Source: Arcticibacter pallidicorallinus
Lineage (GTDB): Bacteria > Bacteroidota > Bacteroidia > Sphingobacteriales > Sphingobacteriaceae
NCBI RefSeq assembly: GCF_003002875.1
Contig: NZ_PVTH01000001.1
Location: 124,001 to 188,000 of the forward strand
Length of the DNA stretch: 64,000 bases
Direction: 5' to 3'
The position numbers were made by a program, and so were the translations under genes. The notes beneath the pieces were generated by a model that saw only the letters and a program-made list of their open reading frames with translations, was not told where the DNA came from and made no database searches. Below, one piece after another: positions 43,083-55,346 of this stretch (its first letter is position 1; each line of letters opens with the position of its first letter).

Positions 43083-43622
43083 ATGAAAAACATGAAAAAC
43101 ATGAAAAAACTAGCTATTTTATGTGCAATTGCTTTTAGCAGTGCCACATTATTTCAGTCATGTAGTGACGATGATGACGATGCAGTAATGACCAACCAGG
43201 AGTTCGTTACGCAGGCGTCAAGTAGTAACAGCTTCGAGATCCAGTCAGGCAGCCTTGCCGTAACCAAGGGAGAGAATCCATTGGTCAAAATGTTTGGCCA
43301 ACACATGGTGACAGATCATACCATGGCGGCTGAAGAGTTAGCTCCTTTGGCGCAGCGTAAGGGCTGGACTTTAAGTCAGACCCTCCTTAAACGGCACCAG
43401 GACAACTTCAATATGCTAAGTCCCCTTACCGGGAACGCTTTTGATAAAGAGTTTGCGCGCCTGATGGTTGTATCACATGAAGAAGCCGTATCGCTGTTTC
43501 GTTCAGCATCCTCCTCTGATGGAGTTCCAGATTCAGAGCTTCGCTCCTGGGCTGCAGGTAAACTTCCTAAGCTCGAGCAGCATTTGGAAGAAGCAAAGGA
43601 CCTCCACGATGCAGTGAATTAG
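43083..43622 (+). CDS. DUF4142 lipoprotein
   Basis: The 179-aa protein has a lipobox LFQSC (Cys27) followed by an Asp-rich linker (SDDDDD). DUF4142 features follow: EFVTQASSSNSFEIQSGSLA, NPLVKMFGQHMVTDHTMAAEEL, and LMVVSHEEAVSLF, a four-helix bundle with regularly spaced His, Met and Glu that could bind metal. Family function is not known; members are exported and frequently appear next to stress genes. The start is oddly repetitive: ATG AAA AAC is present twice in tandem, followed by ATG AAA AAA, so three ATGs (43083, 43092, 43101) can begin the protein. It is upstream of SodC on the same strand, 136 bp away. Confidence 0.85.
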   Translation: MKNMKNMKKLAILCAIAFSSATLFQSCSDDDDDAVMTNQEFVTQASSSNSFEIQSGSLAVTKGENPLVKMFGQHMVTDHTMAAEELAPLAQRKGWTLSQTLLKRHQDNFNMLSPLTGNAFDKEFARLMVVSHEEAVSLFRSASSSDGVPDSELRSWAAGKLPKLEQHLEEAKDLHDAVN

Positions 43623-43758
43623 AGGATCTTTTGGTTGTTCGATCTTCTGAAGTATGTGAAATATGGGTCGGAGCAGGATGATTGGGACACACATTCCCAC
43701 ATCTTTCAACACAAATAGGCCTTATAGCTGTTTCGTAGGTTAACCAATATTATCAGAT

Positions 43759-44352
43759 ATGTTAAAGAAGACATTAAATTCGATGGGAGCATTAGTTTTG
43801 CTTCTCGCAGTTGCTTGTACGAATACAAAAAACAGTAACAGTTCAGATTCTTTGAACACTGACGGTACAAGTGTAGCCGATAGTGCAAGCGCTAAACAGG
43901 CTCATGCAGACATCTCCGCTACCAAGGCAGACACATCCGGCAGCGGTATGGCTCATTTTACCGCTTTGGGCGATGGAAAGGTTGAAATGAAGCTAACGCT
44001 GGAGTTCCCGGCGAAAGCGAATCAATCTGTTGCAGTGCACTTTCACGAACATGGCGATTGTGGTGACAGCGGTAACGGAGCTCATGGACATTGGAATCCA
44101 ACGGGAGAGAAACACGGTAAGTGGGATTCTGCTGAACATCACTCAGGCGACATAGGAAATATCAACCTCGACGGCAACGGTAAAGGCGAGATAACTATTC
44201 AGTCTGACCGCTGGAGTATCGGTGGTGATGAGAAGACTAACATTTTGGACAAGGCTATTATTGTTCATTCAGGTGTGGATGATTATACCACTCAGCCTAC
44301 TGGCAACTCAGGAAGTCGTATCGGCTGTGGGGTAATTATGGAGATGAAATAA
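43759..44352 (+). CDS. sodC: Cu/Zn superoxide dismutase, lipoprotein
   Basis: The 197-aa protein has a lipobox AVAC (Cys20) and a low-complexity Ser/Thr/Asp linker (about 24-55). The SodC domain is complete: Cu ligands in VHFHEHGDCGD, the Zn region GAHGHWNPTGEKHGKWDSAEHHSGDIGN, disulfide partners Cys near GDCGD and in SRIGCGVIM, and the catalytic Arg in GNSGSRIGCG. The signal and linker place it anchored in the periplasm or outer membrane, where it removes superoxide. The 107-aa gene starts 8 bp after the stop on the same strand, so they probably form an operon. The linker is longer than in most bacterial SodC proteins. No sign of disruption. Confidence 0.95.
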   Translation: MLKKTLNSMGALVLLLAVACTNTKNSNSSDSLNTDGTSVADSASAKQAHADISATKADTSGSGMAHFTALGDGKVEMKLTLEFPAKANQSVAVHFHEHGDCGDSGNGAHGHWNPTGEKHGKWDSAEHHSGDIGNINLDGNGKGEITIQSDRWSIGGDEKTNILDKAIIVHSGVDDYTTQPTGNSGSRIGCGVIMEMK

Positions 44353-44360
44353 CCGATATC

Positions 44361-44684
44361 ATGTTTGACAAAGTATTAGATCTGGTAAATCAGCACATTT
44401 CCAATAATCCGGAAATAGCGAAGCTTGTTCCTCCTGGTCAGCAGGAAGATGTGAACAGAGAAGTGGCCTCAGGAGTAAACGATGGCTTGAAAAACAGTTT
44501 CACGTCGGGTGGAATAGGGGGAATGTTATCCTCTCTGACAGGAGGGGCGGGAAACGGAGACATGTCTGAGAATATTGCGAAAGCTGTAGCAGACAGACTA
44601 CAGGGAAAGTTTGGTCTTTCGCCTGAGGTTATCCAAAAGATCGCAAATGCCATCCCCGGCATTATTCAGAAGTTGCGGGGCTAG
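44361..44684 (+). CDS. Small DUF937-like protein, 107 aa
   Basis: The 107-aa protein follows sodC after 8 bp and is closed by a strong terminator, so it is probably its operon partner. Sequence begins with a short helix (FDKVLDLVNQHISNN), then a Gly-rich block (GGIGGMLSSLTGGAGNG, about 50-67), and ends with a helix (LSPEVIQKIANAIPGIIQKL). The layout recalls the DUF937/YidB-like proteins, but the assignment is only tentative. There is no signal peptide or long hydrophobic helix. Function unknown. The translation of this reading frame is supported by a clean start, spacing and terminator. Confidence 0.7.
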   Translation: MFDKVLDLVNQHISNNPEIAKLVPPGQQEDVNREVASGVNDGLKNSFTSGGIGGMLSSLTGGAGNGDMSENIAKAVADRLQGKFGLSPEVIQKIANAIPGIIQKLRG

Positions 44685-44693
44685 AGAGAATCG

Positions 44694-44727
44694 AAAAAGC
44701 CGGAAATATCAATCTTCCGGCTTTTTT
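44694..44727 (+). terminator. Rho-independent terminator after the sodC operon
   Basis: AAAAAGCCGGAA (44694-44705), loop ATATCAATC, TTCCGGCTTTTTT (44715-44727): a perfect stem with an uninterrupted T-run, 9 bp after the stop of the 107-aa gene. Confidence 0.88.
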
Positions 44728-44811
44728 CTTAAGATGTGAAATATGTATCATTATCAACTTTTATTAAAGGTTTTAAGCACGGTTAGCTAAATTGCAGTCT
44801 GAAACCTGCAA

Positions 44812-46308
44812 ATGATGCGTACCAAGCTACTGGTTACTTCTGCTTTCATTACAATCGGCGCTCTTGTGGGCTTTAGCCTTCGACGAGAGGCCACTCGTCT
44901 CGCCATTGAAGACACCTCTATATGGCAGAGTTACGACCGTTATCAAGAGCAGGGTATACAACATCTGATGGTCAAGCATACAGAGATACAGCCACTCATC
45001 AACAAGCATCTCGCTTCAGGGCTATTACGATCTGGTCTGCAGGGAACCTCTGTGCAAGGAAGGAGTATCAATCATCTTGTCGCCGGAAAGGGGAAAACTA
45101 AGGTTCTTCTATGGTCGCAGATGCACGGAGACGAATCAACCGCAACCATGGCTTTATTCGACATCTTCAACTTCCTGTCTGCCGCCGATGAAAACGATTC
45201 ATTCAGGCGTTTGCTGATGGAGAAGCTTGAACTCCACTTTGTTCCAATGATCAATCCTGATGGGGCAGAGTTATGGAAGCGCAGGAATGCGATGGATATA
45301 GACATCAATCGTGATGCGCGTGCGCTAACTACGCCGGAGGGACGTTTCCTGATGAAGGTGGCAGATGAGATAAAACCCCGCTTTGGTTTCAATCTGCATG
45401 ATCAGAATGCTTTACACTCCGTTGGCTCGTCAAGCAAACCAGCTACTATTTCTTTTCTTGCACCCGCCTATAACCACGCAAGGGACATGAACGAGACTCG
45501 TGAGAACGCAGCGAAAATGATTATCCTGATGAACCGTACCCTCCAGAAGTACCTGCCGGATCAGGTGGCTAAATATAACGATGCGCACGAGCCTAGAGGC
45601 TTTGGAGATACATTTCAGAAGAAGGGGATTTCAACCATTCTTATTGAGTCAGGAGGTTACCTTAACGATCCTCAAAAGCAATACATCCGAAAGCTTAACT
45701 TTTACGTACTTCTGAGCGCACTGCATGCAATCGCAAAGGAAGCTTATGAGCAGGAGGATGTTGAACGATATTATTCTATTCCAGAAAATGGGCGATTTCT
45801 TTTCAACGTGGTTATCCGGAACGCTGAGATCGTGAAAGATAGCCTGCGTTATCGCACGAGTGTCGGAATTAACCATTATACATCATTGGACGCTACCCGG
45901 AAACGGTTGAATTATCGGGGTGCTATTGACGAGCTTGCCGACATGCATGATAATTACGGATATCATGATGTGGACGCCGCTTCGCTGCTGTCGGTACCCG
46001 GCAAAGTGATCGCTATGAAAAAGGATGAATGGGAAAAGCTTAGTTTGAAAAGCGAAGCTGCTCTTTTGAGACAGGGCTATCTGTATATCCGTTTTTCCGA
46101 CCAGCGTTCTCCTACTGGTCCTGTACCAAATCGTCTTCTGAATCTGATTAATGGATCTCCCCTTAGCTTGTCTATCGCCCTATACCAAAATGCCAACTTC
46201 GTTCTTGCAGCCCGGGATGGAAAGCCGGCCTATGCAGTAGTTAACGGCTTTCTGATTGACCTGAATAAAGAAAAAATTTCCTCTCTGCCAAACACCTATG
46301 GCTATTAG
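44812..46308 (+). CDS. M14 family zinc carboxypeptidase, exported
   Basis: The 498-aa protein has an N-terminal hydrophobic segment (about 5-24) that works as a signal peptide or anchor. The M14 zinc set is His105 and Glu108 in SQMHGDEST, and His196 in NLHDQ; Glu279 in TILIESGGY is the general base. NPDGAELWKRRN and DINRDAR are the usual substrate-binding blocks. The catalytic domain covers about 70-310; the remaining 190 residues are beta-rich, probably an accessory domain. Members trim C-terminal residues from peptides or peptidoglycan fragments. It stands alone, after the sodC terminator and 83 bp ahead of a small gene. Family call strong, substrate open. Confidence 0.9.
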   Translation: MMRTKLLVTSAFITIGALVGFSLRREATRLAIEDTSIWQSYDRYQEQGIQHLMVKHTEIQPLINKHLASGLLRSGLQGTSVQGRSINHLVAGKGKTKVLLWSQMHGDESTATMALFDIFNFLSAADENDSFRRLLMEKLELHFVPMINPDGAELWKRRNAMDIDINRDARALTTPEGRFLMKVADEIKPRFGFNLHDQNALHSVGSSSKPATISFLAPAYNHARDMNETRENAAKMIILMNRTLQKYLPDQVAKYNDAHEPRGFGDTFQKKGISTILIESGGYLNDPQKQYIRKLNFYVLLSALHAIAKEAYEQEDVERYYSIPENGRFLFNVVIRNAEIVKDSLRYRTSVGINHYTSLDATRKRLNYRGAIDELADMHDNYGYHDVDAASLLSVPGKVIAMKKDEWEKLSLKSEAALLRQGYLYIRFSDQRSPTGPVPNRLLNLINGSPLSLSIALYQNANFVLAARDGKPAYAVVNGFLIDLNKEKISSLPNTYGY

Positions 46309-46743: not shown

Positions 46744-46751
46744 TACCTTTG
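46744..46751 (+). promoter_or_regulatory. -7 box TACCTTTG for the RsbQ-like/PAS pair
   Basis: Exact TAnnTTTG match. The predicted start near 46755 gives a leader of about 23 nt to ATG 46778. Confidence 0.55.
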
Positions 46752-46777
46752 CAGTAAAACATGCAGCATACGTGAGA

Positions 46778-47584
46778 ATGGTAGACGTCTTAGCGAGAAA
46801 CAACGTCAGAATAACGGGTAAAGGTGAGCAAATTATAATGTTTGCTCACGGTTTTGGATGTGATCAAAATGTCTGGAGATATCTTTTAAGGGATTTTGAA
46901 AAAGGCTACACCACCATAGTGTTTGATTTCGTCGGCTCTGGACAGTCTGACCTGGCCGCGTATGATTCCCAAAGATACAGTAGCCTCGATGGGTACGCAC
47001 TGGACGTCATCGAAATCCTCGAGACTCTAAATCTAAAAAATGTGGTTTTTATCGGTCATTCAGTCGCGTGTATGATTGGAATGAAAGCAGCTATAGTGCG
47101 TCCAGAATACTTTGGTAGTCTGATATTCGTAGCACCTTCTCCATGTTATATAATCGACGAATCGTATAATGGAGGAATGCAAAGGGCTGATCTTGAAGCA
47201 TTATTTGAGGTCATGGATAGCAACTATCTGGGGTGGTCAAGCAGTATGGCACCGCTCATCATGGGAAATCCGGAAAGACCGGAACTCGGGGAGGAACTAA
47301 CTGACAACTTTTGTGCTACAGATCCTGACATAGCGCGAGAGTTTGCGCGAGTCACGTTCTTATCGGATAACCGAGCTGATTTGAAAATGCTTGAAACCCC
47401 AAGTCTTACGTTACAATGTTCATCCGATATGCTCGCTCCCATAGAAGTTGGTCATTATATTCATGAGAATACGGCTAATAGTACCCTGGCCGTACTTAGT
47501 GCTACGGGACATTGCCCCCATATGAGTCATCCCGAGGAAACGATACGGGCTATCCGCTCTTATATAAACGATCATGGGTTCTGA
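46778..47584 (+). CDS. RsbQ-like alpha/beta hydrolase
   Basis: Translation from ATG 46778 gives 268 aa; an in-frame GTG six bases earlier is less likely. The N-terminus NNVRITGKGEQIIMFAHGFGCDQNVW is the RsbQ/KAI2/D14 signature. The catalytic triad is Ser95 in GHSVA, Asp217 in SSDMLAP and His245 in TGHCPHMS, nearly the same spacing as B. subtilis RsbQ (Ser96, Asp219, His247, 269 aa, from memory). RsbQ makes or processes a small hydrophobic signal that is passed to the PAS domain of the RsbP phosphatase during energy stress. The next gene, a PAS protein, overlaps this one by 11 bp, so the module is conserved in principle, but its output domain differs. Confidence 0.9.
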   Translation: MVDVLARNNVRITGKGEQIIMFAHGFGCDQNVWRYLLRDFEKGYTTIVFDFVGSGQSDLAAYDSQRYSSLDGYALDVIEILETLNLKNVVFIGHSVACMIGMKAAIVRPEYFGSLIFVAPSPCYIIDESYNGGMQRADLEALFEVMDSNYLGWSSSMAPLIMGNPERPELGEELTDNFCATDPDIAREFARVTFLSDNRADLKMLETPSLTLQCSSDMLAPIEVGHYIHENTANSTLAVLSATGHCPHMSHPEETIRAIRSYINDHGF

Positions 47585-48224
47585 TAATGTGAAATCGGAT
47601 CCGAATGGGCAGAAATCAGACTTTGCCTTCCTCTATGACAATGCCGCATGCGGATTGATCGTATTTAACTTATCCGGTAAGATTTATCAGACGAACCAAA
47701 CCCTCCGCTTATGGACCGGTTTGGAAGAGACTCAGATTAATGGATCGACTTTTTCACATCTATTCGACAAGGGAAGCCAGTTATATCTTCAACTGTTCGT
47801 ATATCCGCTCCTTAAAATGCATAAGGAGGTAAAGGAAATTAATCTTACAGTCGAAACGGAAAGCCAGAACTTTCAATGCTTGCTCAGTGCGAAAGTGATA
47901 GAGAACTCCGCCCAAGATGACAAGATGCTTGTTCATGCAGCCATATTTAAGGTGGTTGACAGGAAAAAGTTTGAGGATGAGCTTCTGTTAAAGAAAAAGG
48001 CGGCAGAACAAGAGAAACTACAAAAGGAAGAGACCTTAAGGAAAGTTGCTTCCGACCAATCTCACCTTGTCCGCGCCCCACTTGCAAATATCCTGGGCTT
48101 AGTGGCCTTACTTGAGCAAGCTGAGATGACCGAAGATTCCAAAGAGTTGATCTCTATGTTGAAAGAGTCAGCTAATCAGCTTGATATGATGGTCAGAGGT
48201 ATTGTCAATAAAGCAAATACTTAA
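47574..48224 (+). CDS. PAS protein with DHp-like helix but no ATPase domain
   Basis: The 216-aa protein starts at ATG 47574, inside the hydrolase stop region, so translation is coupled. Residues 15-125 form a PAS domain (FLYDNAACGLIVFNLSGKIY, NQTLRLWTGLEE). A coiled-coil helix (about 130-155) leads to a DHp-like helix with His164 in SDQSHLVRAPLANILGL, which corresponds to the H-box of histidine kinases. The protein ends 52 residues later (MVRGIVNKANT), with no HATPase, receiver or phosphatase domain. By analogy with RsbQ-RsbP, the hydrolase product would be sensed by the PAS domain. How the signal leaves this protein is open: it may dock on another kinase or on a phosphotransfer partner elsewhere. 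Confidence 0.82.
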   Translation: MGSDNVKSDPNGQKSDFAFLYDNAACGLIVFNLSGKIYQTNQTLRLWTGLEETQINGSTFSHLFDKGSQLYLQLFVYPLLKMHKEVKEINLTVETESQNFQCLLSAKVIENSAQDDKMLVHAAIFKVVDRKKFEDELLLKKKAAEQEKLQKEETLRKVASDQSHLVRAPLANILGLVALLEQAEMTEDSKELISMLKESANQLDMMVRGIVNKANT

Positions 48225-48281: not shown

Positions 48282-49106
48282 ATGAAAAAGATTGTTCTGT
48301 TCCTCGCTTCTTTCTGTGTGGCGATCGCTTGCTTTGCGCAGATAGGCGACTTGTCTAAGATAGGTCAACTGACTTACGGAGGCCTGCCTGTGAGAGAAAG
48401 CCTCTCATCAAACGACGAGGTAAAGGTCCTTATTAATGCTGCTTATATATCGTGTTATGATGAGCTGTTGAAAAATCCTCTCTGGGTAGCCTATCGCCTG
48501 GGAAATATAAAAGGAGATTTCAAGTATGTCAATTGGGAAAGGCCCTTCCGGTTCCTTACAGACTATCGCACGGAAAGCAAGGTGGATCATGATGCGTTTA
48601 AAAGCTCAGGATACGACAGGGGCCATATGGCTCCCAACGCCACTATTTTATCCCAGTACGGACAGCTGGGGCAGCTCGAAACTTATCTGATGACCAATAT
48701 CAGTCCCCAAAGTCCAGCTCTCAACCAGGGACTCTGGGCAAACCTGGAAAAACTCGAGAGAGAAAGTCTGTCACAGGATGATACTCCAAACAAAGAAGTG
48801 CACGATCTCTTTGTGATCACTGGTCCTGTTTTTGATAAAAGCCCTCGTATGCTCACATCGGGAGTCGCCGTTCCTTCTGGTTTTTATCGCATTCTGGCTT
48901 TCCGCAAAGGGTATGCCGGCACTCTTAAGGCCGTGGCTTTCCTCTTTCCTCAAAATCCGAAATCTAAAAATCTTACGGATTACCTCACAACAGTCGATAA
49001 CATTGAATCATTAACTAATCTCAATTTCTTTCCGGAGCTCTCCCGAACAGTTCAACACAACCTGGAAAGCAGGAAACGGGATTTATTGCTTAATGAGGTT
49101 AAGTAA
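48282..49106 (+). CDS. DNA/RNA non-specific endonuclease (NUC family), secreted
   Basis: The 274-aa protein has a signal peptide (MKKIVLFLASFCVAIACFAQ). The beta-beta-alpha-metal motif YDRGHMAPN gives Asp112-Arg113-Gly114-His115, with His115 as the general base, and Asn148 in LNQGLWANLE as the Mg2+ ligand. RTESK and ISPQSPALNQG are typical of the Serratia-nuclease/EndoG fold. It degrades double- and single-stranded nucleic acid in the periplasm or outside the cell, a role in nutrient scavenging or defence against extracellular DNA. No immunity gene is adjacent. A -7-like box TATCTTCG (one mismatch) occurs about 20 bp upstream. The stop codon directly abuts the DUF421 remnant on the other strand. 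Confidence 0.92.
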   Translation: MKKIVLFLASFCVAIACFAQIGDLSKIGQLTYGGLPVRESLSSNDEVKVLINAAYISCYDELLKNPLWVAYRLGNIKGDFKYVNWERPFRFLTDYRTESKVDHDAFKSSGYDRGHMAPNATILSQYGQLGQLETYLMTNISPQSPALNQGLWANLEKLERESLSQDDTPNKEVHDLFVITGPVFDKSPRMLTSGVAVPSGFYRILAFRKGYAGTLKAVAFLFPQNPKSKNLTDYLTTVDNIESLTNLNFFPELSRTVQHNLESRKRDLLLNEVK

Positions 49107-54575: not shown

Positions 54576-55346
54576 TCACTGATCCAGCCAGATCTTAAAC
54601 AGAGGGGTTCGCTGACTACTTACGATAACCTCGTCTTCCAGGGGCGGATGGAGAATTAGTTTCATTCTTCCCTTGAAATAAGGGTGGATTTCTCGGGCGG
54701 CATCAATATGGATAATGAGTTTCCGATTTACATGGAAAAATATTGCCGGATCCAGAAAATTAATCAACTCATCCAAAGCATAGTCAATAGGGAAGCTACC
54801 TCCGTCTTTGGTCACTAAGAGTGTTAGCTTGTTATGTGAATGAAAATATGCGATATCCTCTGTTTTGACCGCTTTGATCCGGTTACCTATCTTCACCATA
54901 AAGCGCGATTTGTAGGATGTTTCGCGCTTTTTAATAAGTCCCATCAGGTCATTTACCTGAGCGCTGATCTCTGTGCCTGTTCCTTGTGATCGGTGCAGTT
55001 CTTTCATTTTTTCCAGACTCTTCTCGAGTTTTGCTTGCTGAACAGGTTTAAGCAGATAATCAATGCTGTTGAGTTCGAAGGCTTTTAGGGCATATTCATC
55101 GTAGGCCGTGCAGAAGATAACTGGACATTTAACCGGCACCTGCTCAAATATCTCGAAGCAGAGACCGTCAGCTAAATGAATGTCAAGCAGAATAAGGTCA
55201 GGCAGTTTGTGCGACTTTAACCATTCTACTGTACCTTCAACGGAGCTCATCACCCCGAGGATCCTAATCTCGGGATCATATTCCTTTAAAAGGCTGATGA
55301 GTCTTTCTGCTGCGGGGTTCTCATCTTCTATAATTAAAACGTCCAT
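54576..55346 (-). CDS. LytTR-type response regulator
   Basis: The 256-aa protein has a receiver domain (1-122) with Asp55 in DLILLDIHLADG, Thr/Lys switch residues in FCTAYDEYALKAF and YLLKPVQQAK, and a LytTR DNA-binding domain (about 150-256): RFMVKIGNRIKAVKTEDIAYF, FFHVNRKLIIHIDAAREI. The start is 5 bp after the kinase stop, so the two form a classic LytS/LytR pair: the kinase phosphorylates Asp55 and the LytTR domain binds DNA repeats. It is the last gene of a three-gene minus-strand operon headed by the repeat-built exported protein. Regulated genes are unknown. No LytTR-type direct repeats were searched for systematically. Confidence 0.93.
   Translation of the reverse strand: MDVLIIEDENPAAERLISLLKEYDPEIRILGVMSSVEGTVEWLKSHKLPDLILLDIHLADGLCFEIFEQVPVKCPVIFCTAYDEYALKAFELNSIDYLLKPVQQAKLEKSLEKMKELHRSQGTGTEISAQVNDLMGLIKKRETSYKSRFMVKIGNRIKAVKTEDIAYFHSHNKLTLLVTKDGGSFPIDYALDELINFLDPAIFFHVNRKLIIHIDAAREIHPYFKGRMKLILHPPLEDEVIVSSQRTPLFKIWLDQ

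Follow-up and report, generated by a model that had tools for sequence, protein, structure and literature searches.

We analysed a stretch of 64,000 nucleotides of the Arcticibacter pallidicorallinus genome (contig NZ_PVTH01000001.1, positions 124,001 to 188,000; hereafter the window), and more precisely two overlapping genes that it carries on its forward strand. The first encodes an alpha/beta hydrolase of the RsbQ type; the second encodes a protein of 216 amino acids (aa) made of a PAS domain and a histidine-bearing DHp domain, which ends there, without an ATPase (HATPase) domain. The features of this pair, where H+1 and H+4 designate the first and fourth positions after the His of the DHp, are the following.

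46778 to 47584, + strand: RsbQ-like alpha/beta hydrolase with the triad S95/D217/H245 (Pfam, 1wom match, triad alignment)
47574 to 48224, + strand: PAS-DHp protein, 216 aa, no HATPase (open reading frame (ORF), Pfam, NCBIfam, AlphaFold2)
47622 to 47951, + strand: RsbP-type PAS domain, residues 17-126 (AlphaFold2; RsbP-PAS class residues at offset +16)
47961 to 48119, + strand: long helix into DHp helix 1, residues 130-182 (AlphaFold2)
48063 to 48065, + strand: His164 codon, in QSHLVRAPL, with Leu at H+1 and Ala at H+4 (translation, alignment)
48132 to 48218, + strand: DHp helix 2, residues 187-215, stop directly after (AlphaFold2)

The hydrolase ORF gives 268 aa from ATG 46778 and 270 aa from an alternative start, GTG 46772. 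The ATG is more likely to be used, because most of the homologues read begin there and because the triad numbers of a preliminary description of this DNA (Ser95/Asp217/His245) fit that start; counted from the GTG, the same residues are S97/D219/H247. They align with the triad of RsbQ. In a profile search, the best match in the PDB was RsbQ of B. subtilis (1wom, E 4.4e-94), followed by a bacterial hydrolase (3qvm) and then by the plant KAI2/D14 receptors, and the protein is an RsbQ-family hydrolase with a Ser-Asp-His triad. The preliminary description had also reported the overlap of the two genes, the 216-aa PAS-DHp protein, its His164 and the missing ATPase domain, all of which we recovered from the ORFs, from Pfam and from a scan of the genome.

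The PAS domain of the second protein is N-terminal and encoded immediately downstream of the hydrolase, whose 3' end the ORF overlaps by 11 bp. Its Pfam match lies below the cut-off (PAS fold, 19.5 bits, E 1e-3), and the NCBIfam model AtoS aligns across PAS and DHp with an E of 8e-12, far below the family cut-off. The likeness to RsbP was judged by residue positions, numbered as in PMC3183031, rather than by alignment with the RsbP sequence itself. Over the 10 positions that characterise the RsbP-PAS class, one ungapped offset (+16) gives four identities (C, Q, P and E) and five residues that are similar by our own groups, with a Cys at the P86 position; the next best offset gives three and two, and four identities with a total of eight were reached by 1 of 20000 shuffles. 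The class residues are present at this offset, which puts Tyr71 and Phe75 in the place of RsbP F55 and Y59, both required for RsbQ binding (PMC3183031), and Pro78 and Glu88 in that of P62 and E72. Across six sequences, our own included, Tyr71, Pro78 and Glu88 do not vary, whereas Phe75 does. An AlphaFold2-based proposal places RsbQ between the PAS and the linker of the RsbP dimer, and such linkers have been proposed to be exchangeable among outputs (PMC12143880); the long helix predicted here fits that idea. The 1wom match, the RsbP-PAS class residues and the co-inheritance with the hydrolase described below make the reading of the pair as an RsbQ/PAS bipartite sensor, already advanced in the preliminary description, well supported.

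Beyond the PAS, the AlphaFold2 monomer model, built on a six-row alignment, predicts a DHp hairpin of two helices (130-182 and 187-215, with a turn between; mean predicted local distance difference test score (pLDDT) 79.8, predicted template modelling score 0.52). The likeness to the DHp fold comes from sequence profiles and from the secondary structure of this model. The Pfam HisKA score is 25.4 bits in the protein scan, just below the cut-off of 26.9, and 27.6 bits, above it, at the same gene in the genome scan. Against the PDB, the DHp profile finds 7n0e best (E 1.2e-9), with RetS chains among the matches (6dk7, E 1e-4), and another profile (A1) gives weak matches, again with 7n0e as the best (E 7.8e-4). 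The stop lies 52 residues past His164. Pfam finds no HATPase in the protein, the gene that follows (48282-49106) encodes an Endonuclease_NS, and in the genome scan 20.7 kb separate the PAS-DHp gene from the first HATPase downstream on this strand. Hence, of the "naked DHp helix" without HATPase announced earlier, the absence of HATPase is real and conserved, but the model shows a two-helix hairpin and not a lone helix. The HATPase_c domain of a HisKA histidine kinase is missing, and the box reads H-L-V-R-A where such a kinase has H-E/D-x-x-T/N. None of the PPM, histidine kinase or GGDEF outputs of the RsbQ/RsbP-PAS module follows the PAS, the output being a HisKA-like DHp only.

The kinase activity of HisKA domains requires an acid directly after the His, and their phosphatase activity a Thr or Asn at H+4 (Willett and Kirby 2012, PMC3510030). 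Among the DHp-only partners of RsbQ-like hydrolases, the His is kept in 10/10, with an acid at H+1 in 0/10 and T/N at H+4 in 0/10. The kinase partners of sister hydrolases have both residues (12/12 each), in a count whose pattern presupposed these residues, the boxes having been found without that condition or read directly. The same partition is seen within the genome, where a HATPase follows within 600 bp for 45 of 49 Pfam HisKA matches, the window gene and three others being without. These four boxes (HLVRAP, HVLRRP, HVLRAP and HQIRSP) carry neither the H+1 acid nor the H+4 T/N, and the HATPase-linked boxes, 40 of 45 of which were read, have the acid in 40/40 and T/N in 39/40. The best reading of the box is that the window protein would be neither a kinase nor a HisKA phosphatase. 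A second DHp subtype ending at the DHp appears in a 494-aa TPR protein of the same genome (L066, G000:C8 about 75 kb), with HisKA above the Pfam cut-off, no HATPase and, by eye, a likely membrane helix.

Is this short form, with its hydrolase, conserved? A first search of 60 genomes, our own (G000) included, found full-length short PAS-DHp relatives at 47-49% identity in three others (G002, G004 and G035), each with a hydrolase directly upstream. A hydrolase search over 151 genomes of the family, again with our own, gave 37 matches in 26 genomes at E <= 1e-40, and 30 of these 37 loci were read. Five hydrolases are followed by a short PAS-DHp, three by a PAS-PAS-DHp (interrupted by unknown bases in G031), eight by a PAS-PAS-kinase (L031 being judged from its length and H-box only), one by a PAS-kinase and one by a long PAS protein whose gene runs off the locus; four have no PAS partner. 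The last eight hydrolases are less closely related (38-43% identity) and precede sensor-type genes of other kinds; a contig end cuts one of these genes, and three are known only from a HATPase pattern in their ORF. Among named genomes, a scan returned 11 loci, with the short form in Pararcticibacter amylolyticus, Desertivirga arenae, Mucilaginibacter galii and Pedobacter quisquiliarum, and PAS-PAS-DHp in Pedobacter sp. L105. The P. amylolyticus and D. arenae loci add nothing to the genome count beyond G004 and G035, and the P. quisquiliarum protein (L184) is the same as L036 of G076 and is counted once. The pairing is therefore conserved, with the short form in six genomes (G000, G002, G004, G035, M. 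galii and P. quisquiliarum) and PAS-PAS-DHp beside the hydrolase in four (G007, G031, G142 and Pedobacter sp. L105). The genes downstream of the pair vary between genomes, and the conserved unit is thus of two genes.

A hydrolase tree of 35 rows groups five of the six short-form hydrolases in a single clade (100/99) and the remaining DHp-only rows in a second one (93/88, under the tool's starred level). Hydrolases whose partners continue into a full kinase sit on other branches, the branch order being poorly resolved, and the distribution of DHp and kinase partners needs at least two changes. G007 and G035 each carry both kinds of locus. In the first clade, the stop of all five genes, our own included, falls 52 residues past the His; in the other five DHp-only genes it falls 50-54 residues past it. 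Judged by their sequences, the DHp-only proteins are not truncated copies of the sister kinases, because the type of H-box differs (QSHLVRAPLA versus ASHELKTP). The related genomes suggest that sensors of this kind recur as working elements of signalling circuits and are not broken genes. In the same tree, a branch of RsbQ-like hydrolases (100/100; L040, L042, L043 and L052) from four genomes of one genus has no PAS partner gene adjoining.

Receivers and kinases around the pair were sought with our own small receiver and HATPase detectors, in the window from 36 to 60 kb (about 10 kb before and 12 kb after the start of the pair) and at loci L177-L185, the neighbourhoods of G031 and G142 comprising 1.5-kb flanks. 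In M. galii (L182:262-2001), a hybrid kinase with HisKA, HATPase and C-terminal receiver (Pfam) ends 168 bp ahead of the hydrolase gene, in the same orientation, and is a plausible candidate for the phosphate donor of the pair. In P. quisquiliarum, a GAF kinase lies about 0.5 kb upstream in divergent orientation. In G002, a receiver gene is encoded on the opposite strand, 1.7 kb upstream, and 3.5 kb downstream comes a second gene with a terminal DHp; in G035 a receiver/kinase signal falls in an ORF cut by the locus edge. In the window, a receiver gene (54576-55346) lies on the other strand, 6.4 kb past the pair. These detectors found no receiver or kinase near the pair in G004, G007 and Pedobacter sp. 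L105. Counted over the whole genome, there are 63 receiver and 3 Hpt matches, so that other phosphate carriers are conceivable.

The terminal DHp is more widespread than the hydrolase pair. A class profile (A2) was built from 20 DHps, the seeds being taken by an H-box pattern that excludes T/N at H+4 and is free at H+1 and at the C-terminus. In the A. pallidicorallinus genome it gives seven matches at E <= 3e-16, all C-terminal and without HATPase, and an eighth (E 7.8e-12) that has one; four of the seven are outside the Pfam HisKA list at E 1e-3, so that the wider class is easily overlooked. Over 296 genomes of the phylum, with up to 18 candidates scored per genome, 126 matches were found in 37 genomes at E <= 1e-12, and all were read except 30 at the weak end (about 1.7e-14 to 1e-12). 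Among these 96, 86 stop 1-32 residues past the DHp match, in 29 genomes and up to 10 per genome, and 10 run on into a HATPase. The 86 ORFs measure 198 aa upward, the longest being cut by locus ends. They keep the His (86/86, presupposed by the search pattern), the Arg at H+3 (86/86) and the Pro at H+5 (84/86). Receivers were scored with home-made detectors, built for receiver and HATPase from 6 and 5 sequences and on which the terminal stops do not depend: 14/86 have an N-terminal receiver, 20/86 adjoin a gene for a stand-alone receiver (same strand, at most 300 bp away), and 22/86 have either. The phospho-accepting Asp is kept in 14/14 fused receivers (ten by pattern, four by eye).

Three of the loci read (L165, L166 and L169, in three genomes of two families, and L164 in part) show a row that looks like a phosphorelay cassette, composed of a kinase, a receiver (REC) of 141-146 aa, a REC-PAS-terminal DHp protein of 329-353 aa and a REC of 127-132 aa. 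At L019, a 221-aa CBS-domain protein has a HATPase-less DHp at its end. Outside the window, the A. pallidicorallinus genome also contains a stressosome-like row (L171, G000:C1 about 315.9-323.2 kb) of BLUF, RsbRD_N-STAS, STAS and RsbT-like HATPase proteins, then a HATPase_c_2 protein with weak SpoIIE, a histidine kinase, a multi-PAS protein of 572 aa with a terminal DHp and no HATPase, and a further kinase. A split kinase had been suspected from 191- and 192-aa "cat" ORFs of L077 and L092, and was rejected, these ORFs being the ends of full kinases in longer stretches (L163 and L164).

The conserved pair, the RsbP-class PAS and the two-helix DHp with a conserved His and no ATPase domain are directly supported. 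From these, we tentatively infer, with a confidence that stays short of even, that the two genes form a sensor in which the hydrolase gates a phosphotransfer node of the PhyT or Spo0B kind. The hydrolase, free or loaded with its ligand, would dock on the PAS dimer or feed it; the change in this dimer would pass along the long helix to the DHp bundle, which would thereby expose His164 to receiver domains or hide it from them. A receiver, either stand-alone or part of a hybrid kinase, would phosphorylate His164, which would hand the phosphoryl group to another receiver, as in Spo0B, ChpT and PhyT. The hydrolase signal would then gate a relay step supplied by other kinases rather than initiate one.

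Several observations weigh against this proposal. No receiver or kinase neighbour is conserved beside the pair, in the window and seven other genomes seen with our detectors, and 64/86 members of the class have neither a fused nor an adjoining receiver. An acid at H+1 is kept in 24/86. The absence of T/N at H+4 (0/86) is partly built in, the seeds having been chosen without T/N, and T/N is also absent there from the 10 HATPase-bearing matches of the profile (A in 7, G in 2, S in 1), which have D or N at H+1 in nine cases, Asn in four of them, and E in one. From these boxes, the loss at H+4 is common to some related kinases; the missing acid is the more discriminating trait. The DHp part of the AlphaFold2 model, which is a monomer model, has middling confidence (block pLDDT 64-84). 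Moreover, the His could be kept for docking or for the fold.

The alternative that survives best, although we regard it as rather unlikely, is that the DHp is a sponge holding one response regulator, which the hydrolase-PAS signal would free without any onward phosphotransfer. The conserved His, Arg and Pro of the class would suit such a role, no second receiver adjoins the pair of the window, and PhyT itself also sequesters PhyR (PMC5898713); the retention of the His in 86/86 and 10/10 nevertheless exceeds what docking should need. Mixed dimers with a full histidine kinase, which the protein would block or whose ATPase domain would phosphorylate it in trans, are an unlikely explanation. RetS, which blocks GacS, is among the structures matched by the DHp profile. 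The genome offers 45 HATPase-linked HisKA places, kinases stand upstream of the pair in P. quisquiliarum (GAF, divergent) and in M. galii (hybrid), and in 4/86 class members an ORF with a HATPase lies no more than 300 bp away on the same strand. However, the H-box is unlike those of the genome's kinases, and no adjoining kinase is conserved. Phosphorylation by a separate kinase, which the preliminary description had named as one possibility, loses ground with the Leu found here at H+1 and the non-acidic residue in all 10 hydrolase-linked DHp-only proteins; since the acid needed for the HisKA kinase reaction is absent, transfer from a receiver to the His fits better.

It is improbable that the DHp merely dimerises the PAS for the hydrolase, or that it is left over from a kinase. 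Sister hydrolases do adjoin full kinases, but their DHp is of another type (ASHELKTP against QSHLVRAP), and the constant stop in five genomes at 44-49% identity, together with the kept His, speaks against a remnant. A dedicated response-regulator phosphatase, which is among the possibilities named for archaeal HisKA-only proteins (Galperin 2018, PMC5847659), seems very improbable. A frameshift or sequencing error severing an ATPase domain, as suspected for one published RsbP-PAS homologue (PMC3183031), is hardly credible and was rejected, as no HATPase lies downstream and the same end is found in separate genomes with different following genes.

The surroundings of the pair in the window add one further feature.

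46744 to 46751, + strand: TACCTTTG, candidate -7 element of a Bacteroidota promoter, 26 bp before ATG 46778, suggestive only

The consensus of this element is TAnnTTTG, a pattern without enrichment in the 64-kb window (45 found, 46.9 expected). Upstream of the pair, the stretch 43083-46308 encodes a DUF4142 protein, an M14 carboxypeptidase-like protein and, judged by eye, a Cu/Zn superoxide dismutase-like protein, with no visible link to the pair.

Several known systems lie close to the window pair. RsbQ-RsbP relatives comprise 45 described cases with phosphatase, histidine kinase or diguanylate cyclase outputs, two of them uncertain for a contig end or a frameshift (Nadezhdin 2011, PMC3183031). 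In the window pair, as in these cases, an RsbQ-like hydrolase immediately precedes an N-terminal PAS of the RsbP class, whose key residues fit; the output differs, being here a DHp without ATPase domain. Closer in the genomes, the hydrolase-linked PAS-PAS-HisKA-HATPase kinases (L029-L035, L051, L186 and L188) share the kind of hydrolase, the first PAS and the gene order, but have a second PAS, an H-E-x-x-T box and an ATPase domain. On the output side, HATPase-less PAS/GAF-HisKA and REC-PAS-HisKA proteins have been described in archaea, with phosphotransfer and phosphatase functions both suggested (Galperin 2018, PMC5847659). Like the window protein, they have N-terminal sensors and a C-terminal HisKA-like domain with its His and no HATPase, and REC-(PAS)n-HisKA forms occur too; the likeness is one of architecture, and the window protein differs in being bacterial, coupled to a hydrolase and devoid of both HisKA signature residues. 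PhyT, a DHp sensor with a degenerate ATPase domain, takes phosphate from a single-domain regulator and passes it to PhyR; Spo0B and ChpT are termed "degenerated histidine kinases" (PMC5898713; for ChpT also PMC3433190). They share with the proposed function of the window protein a DHp-type phosphate carrier between receivers, PhyT having a putative sensor region as well, but keep a degenerate ATPase-like domain where the window protein stops after DHp helix 2; PhyT further differs by the HRxxN box of the HWE/HisKA_2 type. PhyT is the nearest tested precedent for the proposed mechanism.

The preliminary description knew of no described module of this form. This has to be narrowed, since HATPase-less PAS/GAF-HisKA proteins are known in archaea, and it holds for the coupling: our searches of open-licence papers showed no pair of an RsbQ-like hydrolase and a HATPase-less DHp, and no account of the Bacteroidota class. 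A word search of PMC4558063 for such proteins gave a single, unrelated passage. As far as these searches go, the hydrolase coupling of a HATPase-less DHp in bacteria is new, and the archaeal HATPase-less HisKA proteins and the RsbQ-PAS modules with kinase output are known.

More widely, it is possible, and we advance it with clear reserve, that Bacteroidota hold a large and mostly unrecognised class of signal-gated histidine phosphotransferases, in which PAS, GAF, CBS, membrane or receiver inputs would act on an ATPase-less terminal DHp, mostly without the kinase acid, the window protein being its RsbQ-type hydrolase version. If this is true, a protein of the strigolactone/karrikin-receptor family would directly gate a phosphorelay node, and the RsbQ-PAS module would gain a fourth output. 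Because related hydrolases adjoin full kinases in some lineages and ATPase-less DHps in others, these loci also offer a natural comparison of the role of the DHp without kinase chemistry. Sensing could then act at the transfer step of a phosphorelay instead of at the kinase.
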